From contig NZ_JAANOP010000008.1 in assembly GCF_011250515.1 (NCBI RefSeq), positions 1-64,000 on the forward strand: a stretch of DNA of 64,000 nt. The letters are read 5' to 3'. Each line of letters opens with the position of its first letter. Position 1 is the first letter of the stretch. Made by a program: the position numbers and the translations under genes. This stretch comes from Aquirufa ecclesiirivi (GTDB lineage: Bacteria > Bacteroidota > Bacteroidia > Cytophagales > Spirosomataceae). Below, one piece after another: positions 41,135 through 44,852 of this stretch. The notes below the pieces were generated by a model that saw only the letters and a program-made list of their open reading frames with translations, was not told where the DNA came from and ran no database searches.

Positions 41135-42850
41135 TTAAGATTCTATCCATGCAATAACTTCATCTTTGCTCGGCATGGCAGCTTCTATCTTTAATTTTTT
41201 ACGCATCCCTCCTAAATCATTAAATACTTTATTGGGATTAGCGGCTTTCAAAGCCTCGAGTGTTAAGATTCCCATTTTTTGTAAAGCAGGAATCCAATGT
41301 TCGGCTACACCTGCCTGAACAAAATCAGCGTCAGAAGATACTTCCTTCAATACTTCTGGTCTCATTTGTGGAAAGAATAATACTTCTTGAATGGAGGCTT
41401 GGTTTGTCATCAACATCGTTAAACGGTCAATACCAATTCCGATACCAGAAGTTGGCGGCATGGCATATTCCAATGAACGAATGAAATCGTGATCCATAAC
41501 CATGGCCTCATCATCCCCTTTTTCGGCCAAACGCAACTGATCTTCAAATCTTTCTTTTTGATCAATCGGATCATTTAATTCCGAATAGGCATTGGCAATC
41601 TCCTTACCATTCACAAATAGCTCAAATCGCTCTACCAAACCTTCTTTTGATCTATGCTTTTTAGTCAGCGGTGACATCTCAACAGGATAATCGATAATAA
41701 AAGTTGGTTGGATTAAATTTGCTTCCACTTTCTCACCAAAAAGCTCGTCGATCAATTTGCCTTTGCCCATCTGCTCATCCACTTCCATACCAAATTCTAG
41801 ACATTTAGCCCGTAAAGCATCCTCAGATAAAGCATCCACATCAACACCTGAATATTTAAGTATGGCTTCTGAAATGGATAATTTAGGATATGGTCCAGCA
41901 AATTCAATGGCATTTTCTCCTATCATCACAAGGGTTTGATGATGTAAAGTTTGAGCTACCTTTTCAAAGATTTTCTCTGTCAAGTCCATCATCCAGTGAT
42001 AATCTTTATATGCTACATAAAACTCTAATGAGGTAAATTCAGGATTATGGGTTCGATCCATTCCTTCATTTCTAAACATTTTACCAAATTCATAAACGCC
42101 ATCAAATCCACCTACAATTAATCGTTTCAAATACAACTCATTCGCAATTCGCAAATAAAGTGGCATGTCCAAGGTATTATGATGCGTTTTAAAGGGTCTA
42201 GCCGAGGCACCACCATGAATAGCTTGTAATACAGGGGTTTCCACTTCCAACCAACCACGCTCATCAAACATGGATCTCATGGTAGAGATGATTTTAGCAC
42301 GCTTGATGAAAATATCTTTAACAGAAGGGTTTACGATTAAATCGACATATCGCTGGCGATAACGCATCTCTGGATCAGAGAATGCATCGTAAGTCTGCCC
42401 TTCAGCTTCCTTCACGACAGGCAGTGGTTTTAATGCTTTGGACAAAAGGGTGAATTCACGCACATGGACGGAAATTTCTCCCATTTGAGTCGTAAAAACA
42501 TATCCTTTTACCCCAATGATATCACCAATGTCTAAAAGCTTTTTGAATACAATATTATATAGTGTTTTGTTTTCTCCTGGACATAAATCATCCCTTCTGA
42601 AATACAATTGGATTCGACCACTGGCGTCTTGCAATTCTGCGAATGAGGCATTTCCCATGATGCGAAAACCCATCAAACGACCAGCCAAGGTTACATCCTG
42701 AAAATTGGCTTCCTCAGCGGAATAAGTAGACAAAATATCCTTGGCATATACAGAAACGGGATAGGCTTCTGCGGGATAGGGATCAATGCCTAAAGCCATT
42801 AAATCCAATCTTTTTTGTCTTCTTAGTTGTTCTTGCTCACTTAAAACCAT
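41135..42850 (-). CDS. lysS: Lysyl-tRNA synthetase (class II)
   Basis: Charges tRNA-Lys. Seen: the OB-fold anticodon-binding domain (VTLAGRLMGFRIMGNASFAEL), class II motif 2 (FRNEGMDRTHNPEFT) and motif 3 (GIGIGIDRLTMLM). After the synthetase core there is a C-terminal extension of about 70 residues (VPALQKMGILTLEALKAANP-like), which I associate with Bacteroidota LysS. The ATG at 42850 gives 571 residues; an in-frame Met at 42883 would lie in the promoter box. Confidence 0.96.
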   Translation of the reverse strand: MVLSEQEQLRRQKRLDLMALGIDPYPAEAYPVSVYAKDILSTYSAEEANFQDVTLAGRLMGFRIMGNASFAELQDASGRIQLYFRRDDLCPGENKTLYNIVFKKLLDIGDIIGVKGYVFTTQMGEISVHVREFTLLSKALKPLPVVKEAEGQTYDAFSDPEMRYRQRYVDLIVNPSVKDIFIKRAKIISTMRSMFDERGWLEVETPVLQAIHGGASARPFKTHHNTLDMPLYLRIANELYLKRLIVGGFDGVYEFGKMFRNEGMDRTHNPEFTSLEFYVAYKDYHWMMDLTEKIFEKVAQTLHHQTLVMIGENAIEFAGPYPKLSISEAILKYSGVDVDALSEDALRAKCLEFGMEVDEQMGKGKLIDELFGEKVEANLIQPTFIIDYPVEMSPLTKKHRSKEGLVERFELFVNGKEIANAYSELNDPIDQKERFEDQLRLAEKGDDEAMVMDHDFIRSLEYAMPPTSGIGIGIDRLTMLMTNQASIQEVLFFPQMRPEVLKEVSSDADFVQAGVAEHWIPALQKMGILTLEALKAANPNKVFNDLGGMRKKLKIEAAMPSKDEVIAWIES

Positions 42851-42888: not shown

Positions 42889-43126
42889 ACCAATTATAGG
42901 CCGATTAAAAAATGGACATCTATTTCATGTAAAATTTACTGCAGAATATTAATAAATTAAATCAGACAAATAGGTTCAATTCTATCGATTTTACTTGGAC
43001 ATTTTACATAAAATCGCATCAAATCTAGCTTTAACAATGGTTGATTTGTCAGTTTTTGGCACATGCTTCAAATTTGATAATCTGCCAATTCTTAAATCTT
43101 GTTAATAAAATAACGAGTTCAGAACA
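42889..43126. other. AT-rich intergenic stretch between lysS and htrA
   Basis: No open frame or RNA gene was recognised here. The only notable motif is a half sigma-54-like TTGGCAC at about 43056, without a -12 half. Together with the lysS box and the sigma-54 site it makes up the 333-base gap. Confidence 0.4.
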
Positions 43127-43143
43127 TTGGCACACATTTTGCG
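43127..43143 (+). promoter_or_regulatory. Sigma-54 (RpoN) promoter of htrA
   Basis: TTGGCAC, five bases (ACATT), TTGC. This matches the sigma-54 -24/-12 consensus TGGCAC-N5-TTGC exactly in its conserved blocks. A start about 12 bases past the GC would be near 43154 and leave a leader of about 30 bases before htrA. No other intergenic site in the window matched both halves by eye. Confidence 0.7.
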
Positions 43144-43183
43144 TTAATTTAGCAAAACTAAAATCTAACGCATTTTTAATATT

Positions 43184-44659
43184 ATGGAAATCAAAAACCA
43201 CCTTAAAACGTATGTGATTATCGCCTTACTTTCTAGCGGAATCACCCTTGGCGCCTATTCCTTATTAAATTTAGGTTCCTCGCACACCCTAGGTGATGCA
43301 CCTTCTGCATTTACAAGTTCTGTTTCCAACCAACAAAATGTCCCCGGAAATCCTGGAGAATTCACCTTTGCAGCTGAAAAAACTACACCAGCTGTGGTAC
43401 ACATTAAAACTAAAATGACAGCTAGACAGAGTCGTCAGTCATCCAGTCCATTTGATGATTTTTTTGGTTTTGGAGACCCTTTTGGCGGCCGACGTCAACA
43501 AGCTCCACAAACACAAGAAGCCTCGGGATCAGGGGTAATTATTAGCTCGGACGGATATATTGTCACAAACAATCACGTGGTTCAAGAAGCCGAAGAAGTG
43601 AGCGTTATCTTAAATGATAAGCGAGAATTTAAAGCTAAAGTAATATCAACGGATCCATCATCTGACTTAGCTGTAATTCAAATCAAAGCTGAAAATTTAC
43701 CATTCTTGAGTTTCGGTGATTCAGACGCACTTCGGGTGGGAGAATGGGTGTTGGCAGTTGGAAATCCATTTAATTTAGAATCAACGGTTACTGCGGGAAT
43801 AGTTTCAGCTAAGGGCCGTCAAAACATCATTGATCGTGATGGAGATACTAACCCTTTGGAATCCTTCATTCAAACCGATGCCGCTGTCAATCCAGGTAAT
43901 TCAGGTGGGGCCTTGGTTAATCTTAAAGGAGAGTTAATTGGTATCAATACGGCTATCTATTCTAGAACAGGTCAATTCGCTGGTTATTCTTTTGCCGTTC
44001 CGGTTAGTATTGTGAAGAAAGTATCATCTGATTTAATCAAATACGGAAATGTGCAACGCGGTTTCTTGGGGGTAAGTATCACGGAGGTAAATGCCAAATT
44101 GGCAGAAGAAAAAGACCTAAAATCCAAAGATGGGGTTTATGTGGGTGGCTTCTCTGAAAATTCGGCAGCCAAAGATGCAGGTATTAAAATAAATGACGTC
44201 ATCACTAAAATCGATGGAACTGATACCAAATCATCTTCTAAATTAATGGAGATTGTCGGTAGAAAGCGTCCAGGTGAAAGTATTTTGGTCACAGTGAACC
44301 GTGATGGTCAAACCAAAGAGTTTAAAGTGACATTAAAAAATAAAGATGGTAATACCTCCATTGTGAAGGGTGATGCAGGCGAATCGACTAAATCTGAATT
44401 TTTAGGCGCTAAATTTGGTAGCCTAAGCAGCGCTGATAAAGAAAAATTCAAAGTAAGTAATGGTGTAAAGGTTATAGAGGTATCAGCTGATGGCCGACTA
44501 GAGATGTATGGTTTATCGAAAGGATCGATTATTACTAAGATCAACGATAAAGCCGTTAGTGATCCTAAAGAAGCTGTTCAGTTATTGGAAGCACGTAAAG
44601 GACGGATTAAACTTGAAGGAGTGGATGTGGACGGTTCTCGTTTCATCTATGTATTATAA
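43184..44659 (+). CDS. htrA: Do/DegP-type periplasmic serine protease (HtrA)
   Basis: The 491-residue protease/chaperone handles misfolded envelope proteins. It has an N-terminal membrane or signal segment (about 8-28), a trypsin-like domain with His131 (NNHVV), Asp161 (SSDLAVI) and Ser240 (NPGNSGGAL), then two PDZ domains (about 275-375 and 400-491). The ATG is clear. It is a single gene with a sigma-54 promoter in front and a strong terminator behind, suggesting control by an RpoN activator sensing envelope stress (inference). Confidence 0.95.
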   Translation: MEIKNHLKTYVIIALLSSGITLGAYSLLNLGSSHTLGDAPSAFTSSVSNQQNVPGNPGEFTFAAEKTTPAVVHIKTKMTARQSRQSSSPFDDFFGFGDPFGGRRQQAPQTQEASGSGVIISSDGYIVTNNHVVQEAEEVSVILNDKREFKAKVISTDPSSDLAVIQIKAENLPFLSFGDSDALRVGEWVLAVGNPFNLESTVTAGIVSAKGRQNIIDRDGDTNPLESFIQTDAAVNPGNSGGALVNLKGELIGINTAIYSRTGQFAGYSFAVPVSIVKKVSSDLIKYGNVQRGFLGVSITEVNAKLAEEKDLKSKDGVYVGGFSENSAAKDAGIKINDVITKIDGTDTKSSSKLMEIVGRKRPGESILVTVNRDGQTKEFKVTLKNKDGNTSIVKGDAGESTKSEFLGAKFGSLSSADKEKFKVSNGVKVIEVSADGRLEMYGLSKGSIITKINDKAVSDPKEAVQLLEARKGRIKLEGVDVDGSRFIYVL

Positions 44660-44690
44660 ATAGATTGATATTTTGAGGTTTTGACATATT

Positions 44691-44721
44691 AAAAATCCCC
44701 CGAAAATCGGGGGATTTTTTT
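44691..44721 (+). terminator. Terminator of htrA
   Basis: CCCCCG (44697-44702) and CGGGGG (44708-44713) pair around AAAAT, extended by A/T pairs, and followed by a long T run. Confidence 0.88.
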
Positions 44722-44727
44722 GTTTTT

Positions 44728-44783
44728 GAACGCTAATTTCCTAACGCTGGCAAGGTTCCAAACCTTGACAGCGTTGAGCGTTC
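44728..44783. repeat. Nested intergenic palindrome built on a 15-mer
   Basis: Arm A, AACGCTGGCAAGGTT (44743-44757), is separated by three bases from arm B, AACCTTGACAGCGTT (44761-44775), its near-complement with one mismatch. An outer pair GAACGCT (44728-44734) and AGCGTTC (44777-44783) encloses them. The same arms appear in the opposite order at 50394-50426. Confidence 0.7.
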
Positions 44784-44852
44784 ATAACGTTTTTGGAAAT
44801 AAATATGTTGTCCAAGAAACTGATATTGTAAACAAAGTTGAACTCTGGATAC

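Follow-up and report, generated by a model that had tools for sequence, protein, structure and literature searches.

In E. coli, degP (htrA) encodes a stress-induced periplasmic protease under the control of sigma-E and CpxR. Envelope stress in E. coli is also served by PspF, a sigma-54 activator with an AAA+ core and a Fis-type helix-turn-helix, but no receiver domain. Our reading of htrA in Aquirufa would likewise imply stress-induced expression of a periplasmic HtrA protease, but would place it under another sigma family with a different activation logic, as sigma-54 needs an ATP-driven activator.

In Flavobacterium psychrophilum, which belongs to the same phylum as Aquirufa, sigma-54 transcript starts (the SM4 regulon) have been mapped for groES-groEL, lon, dnaK, grpE-dnaJ, htpG, skp and clpB (PMC9723704). 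The main text and printed selection of that study do not name htrA, and describe no activator palindrome. Sigma-54 control of GroES/GroEL, GrpE, DnaK, DnaJ, HSP90 and ATP-dependent proteases has been predicted in Bacteroidota including Cytophagia (PMC12316311). This chaperone cluster is a COG-based prediction, and HtrA/DegQ (COG0265) is absent from the main text. Our literature search found no sigma-54 control of htrA in Bacteroidota, and no palindrome described at such promoters. In Bradyrhizobium, htrA appears only among the genes with altered expression when rpoN is doubly mutated (PMC13207237).

We analysed a window of 64,000 nucleotides of Aquirufa ecclesiirivi, in which a sigma-54 consensus precedes htrA, and compared it with the rest of the genome and with relatives. 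The sigma-54-type sites found before dnaK, groES, lon and htpG agree with the regulon mapped in F. psychrophilum (PMC9723704) and with the predicted one (PMC12316311). As in F. psychrophilum, a sigma-54 activator gene adjoins lptE; three activators are described in that species, whereas Aquirufa has one (PMC9723704). We consider it likely that a working sigma-54 promoter puts htrA under the only activator of the genome, together with dnaK, groES-groEL, lon and htpG.

The −24/−12 site before htrA

The htrA gene (43184–44659, + strand) encodes a periplasmic serine protease of 491 amino acids. It has a trypsin-like domain and PDZ domains, and hence the name HtrA/DegP stands. The intergenic region is bounded by a divergent upstream gene (41135–42850, − strand; start codon approximate), which from its sequence we take to be lysyl-tRNA synthetase-like. 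According to a comparison of HtrA proteins, the nearest relatives are Aquirufa species.

The candidate promoter upstream of htrA, TTGGCACACATTTTGC, lies at 43127–43142 on the + strand. It contains TGGCAC-N5-TTGC (43128–43142) with zero mismatches, including GG at −24 and GC at −12. Both the −24 element (TGGCAC, 43128–43133, + strand; preceded by T at 43127) and the −12 element (TTGC, 43139–43142, + strand) are exact. Given the usual distance of 12 bases from the −12 element, the transcript is predicted to start at 43153–43154 (+ strand), with an expected leader of about 30 bases. The first-pass annotation had placed this site at 43127–43143, at the right distance before HtrA, and had noticed no other intergenic site of equal quality in the window. 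The site itself was confirmed, although its end is at 43142, one base earlier than claimed. Its distance also holds, as the site lies 41 bases before the ATG at 43184. Likewise, the window has no other exact match to TGGCAC-N5-TTGC, and no other noncoding match to either TGG[CT]A[CT]N5TT[GT]C or TGGCAYN5TTG.

We calculated from the base composition how often the consensus would occur by chance. For both strands of 64 kb the expectation is about 0.05 exact matches; for the stretches of 100 bases that precede the genes, assumed to number 2,700, it is about 0.1 in total. When two mismatches are allowed, the window contains 43 matches against 46 expected. A scan of the genome for further exact sites, as suggested in the first-pass annotation, did yield three others besides the htrA site, but all three lie within genes. 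The exact consensus is a poor marker here, as the other sites that look genuine deviate from it (dnaK, lon and groES, see below). Across the genus, the exact consensus was not clearly more common than the reversed pattern, without genome-wide enrichment. Taken alone, the exact match is therefore suggestive rather than decisive. The htrA site stands out above chance because it is conserved and because it has sister promoters in a shared regulon.

Conservation, origin and rival promoters

The ten consensus bases are invariant in six species of a single clade of freshwater Aquirufa (the window genome, A. beregesia, A. aurantiipilula, A. nivalisilvae, A. rosea and a pond genome), while three of the five spacer bases vary. 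The site is thus kept in the nearest relatives. All other Aquirufa htrA genes that we examined lack the site, and so do those of eight other members of the family, which had no sigma-54 site before htrA. In a tree of HtrA proteins, presence and absence of the site are explained by a single change. As the site is confined to this clade and the remaining Aquirufa that we examined do not have it, it was probably gained once, at the base of these six species. In other genera and families of the order, TGGCAYN5TTG occurs within 250 bases upstream of htrA in 8 of the 79 loci, where 0.15 matches are expected and the antisense strand has none. Hence, htrA appears to have been recruited to sigma-54 control more than once. 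Judging from its distribution in Aquirufa and the other family members examined, htrA does not belong to the core of the sigma-54 regulon.

The comparison with other Aquirufa also points to a possible housekeeping-type promoter. In several of these genomes, TTG-N19-TAAATTCG or TAATTTCG is found right before htrA, at the same spot, and the site-bearing clade has kept the −7-like box as TAATTTAG or TAAATTCG. In the window this box is TAATTTAG (43145–43152, + strand), which matches the TAnnTTTG of the housekeeping sigma factor with one mismatch and may be a relic or an alternative −7 box; TTG-N20-CAAATTTG is also present upstream. Housekeeping sigma might therefore read htrA from TTG-N19/20-TAnnTTTG as in other Aquirufa, with the −24/−12 site being incidental or minor. 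We regard this as unlikely. No TTG lies 17–21 bases before the −7-like box in the six-species clade, the upstream TTG-N20 candidate is not at a conserved position, and the −24/−12 bases do not vary, in contrast to much of the sequence just upstream.

It is less likely still that both promoters are used, in which case a sigma-54 stress promoter would be superimposed on a housekeeping promoter that is weak, constitutive and starts at almost the same place. Only a few bases indeed separate the relic −7 box from the start predicted for sigma-54, and sigma-54 (SM4) and SM5 promoters occur together at the remFG-sprCDBF operon of F. psychrophilum (PMC9723704), but the clade has no −33 element in register. 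SM5 itself provides another reading, in which htrA is transcribed from the TAnnTTGY box of flavobacteria, with an unknown sigma factor, and the −24 match is fortuitous. Although CATTTTGC fits TAnnTTGY at all specified positions but one (PMC9723704), all six species lack the T of the conserved TA, while none of the six −24 bases varies among them, which makes this reading very improbable.

Sigma-54, its activator and the sister promoters

The genome contains rpoN (G000:C33:57196; E = 1.5e-51), encoding a protein of 479 amino acids with a C-terminal motif resembling the RpoN box, VKRRTVAKYREQLGIP. It was found in 23 of the 29 genomes, and in 17 of the 18 good assemblies. Only one full sigma-54 activator (PF00158) was detected in the genome, next to four weaker and only partial domain matches, and likewise one activator per Aquirufa genome where an activator was found. 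The protein has 436 amino acids, with an AAA+ core from residue 15, a GSFTGA loop and a terminal Fis-type helix-turn-helix (HTH_8); a receiver domain is missing. It thus shares the layout of PspF. The gene order of the region (L297:664–5499) is miaB, activator, lptE, a gene for a 180-amino acid protein, a secG-like gene, groES and groEL, where miaB and the secG-like gene are presumed identities based on their sequences. Many relatives seem to have a similar spacing between the activator gene and groEL.

Sites of the TGGCA[CT]N5TTG[CTA] type were found before dnaK in all 30 loci and before groES in all 28; the loci come from Aquirufa and from further families of the order. Variants occur: one dnaK site reads TGGTAC, and groES frequently carries ATGC, ATGT or ATGA as its −12 box. 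In this genome, the dnaK site is TGGCATATTCCTTGT at −45, while the groES site, TGGCACACATCATGC at −82, is nearly identical to that of htrA. The core motifs are TGGCAT-N5-TTGT at dnaK and lon, and TGGCAC-N5-ATGC at groES. At htpG we found a weak TGGACT-N5-TTGT, with a perfect palindrome upstream at the standard distance.

We also searched the genome for TGGCAYN5TTG, which gave 96 matches against 35 for the reversed control. Nearly all 96 matches were inspected; about 80 lie within genes, so that the excess over the control mainly reflects coding sequence. Noncoding matches with a gene start close behind are those of lon, dnaK, htrA, a prfC-like gene and one doubtful case. The match before the prfC-like gene was set aside, because it consists of a palindrome, TTTGGCACCCAAATTGGGTGCCA, followed by T, and resembles a terminator. 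Three further noncoding matches were dropped because no convincing gene start follows them.

A palindrome, TGNCA-N3-TGNCA, with at most one mismatch, was present upstream of the −24 element at 29 of the 29 dnaK loci and 23 of the 28 groES loci, while shuffled sequences gave about one each. An example from dnaK is TGACAATATGTCA. In most dnaK genes its centre lies 29 bases ahead of the −24 element, and in most groES genes of Aquirufa 17–18 bases; the distance is 19 bases for htpG, 8 for lon, and 39–40 for two htrA genes of another family. The palindrome centres thus step by about one helical turn. The palindrome is probably the binding site of the activator. PspF, which is restrained by PspA, has its binding sites further upstream, whereas the putative sites in Aquirufa lie only 8–40 bases before the −24 element. 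They sit much closer to the promoter than usual.

A full palindrome is found at dnaK, htpG and others, while htrA of Aquirufa has an invariant half-site and scattered half-sites. The invariant half-site, TGCCA (43083–43087, + strand), would form one half of a putative activator palindrome; the left half beside it is imperfect (TGATA, 43075–43079; TGATA-ATC-TGCCA in the window). Two further half-sites, TGTCA-N5-TGGCA (43047–43061, + strand), have a non-standard spacing and are not conserved. Upstream of htrA, each of the six Aquirufa species with the site has three or more TGNCA half-sites, whereas each of the 13 upstream regions without a sigma-54 site has none or one. The half-sites at htrA are the weakest link of the case for sigma-54.

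In the clade with the htrA site, the −24/−12 element of htpG (htpG and four sister loci) has decayed to TGGACT-N5-TTGT or weaker, and the palindrome has stayed perfect at these loci.

Proposed control of htrA and flanking sequences

The sequence itself shows the site and its conservation, as well as the sister promoters, rpoN and the single activator, and these suggest the following model. RNA polymerase with sigma-54 would read the −24/−12 site before htrA, which was probably acquired in a single event at the base of the six-species clade. This acquisition would have placed htrA under the 436-amino acid activator, whose gene lies between miaB and lptE, with groES-groEL a few genes further downstream. 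The activator may bind TGNCA-type sites immediately ahead of the −24 element, and would open the htrA promoter when protein folding or damage to the envelope requires it, at the same time as those of dnaK, groES-groEL, lon and htpG.

A wider reading is that Cytophagales have a dedicated sigma-54 switch for proteostasis, to which envelope genes such as htrA were recruited repeatedly, in the Aquirufa clade by conversion of a housekeeping promoter. This switch would comprise one activator without a receiver domain, encoded between miaB and lptE near groES-groEL, and TGNCA-N3-TGNCA sites centred about 8, 18, 29 or 39 bases before the −24 element. We lean towards this wider reading by a small degree only.

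The first-pass annotation had proposed sigma-54 control of htrA, and had seen in it a link between envelope quality control and an RpoN activator. Sigma-54 control is supported by the presence of rpoN, the single activator, the conservation of the site and the sister promoters. The link would not be one between the envelope alone and a special activator, since htrA would join a general regulon of chaperones and proteases already described in Bacteroidota (PMC9723704). The novelty is therefore smaller than was supposed, as sigma-54 control of protein quality control was known in this phylum, and htrA would be a modest but real addition to the known stress regulon. With htrA, the sigma-54 chaperone regulon of Bacteroidota would also include a periplasmic protease. 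As it has a single activator, Aquirufa offers a small test system for what the activator senses, and for how a gene switches from housekeeping sigma to sigma-54.

Several other sequence features were observed around htrA. At 43089–43108 of the window, TTCTTAAATCTTGTTAATAA belongs to the longest block without variation upstream of the gene; almost all Aquirufa examined have a form of it, CTTAAAACTTGTTAAT, whether or not they have the sigma-54 site. Downstream of htrA, at 44690–44800 of the window, a terminator-like hairpin, CCCCCGAAAATCGGGGG, is followed by T. An inverted repeat around GCAAGGTTCCAAACCTTGACAGCGTT comes after the hairpin, and is also found behind htrA in the closest relatives.
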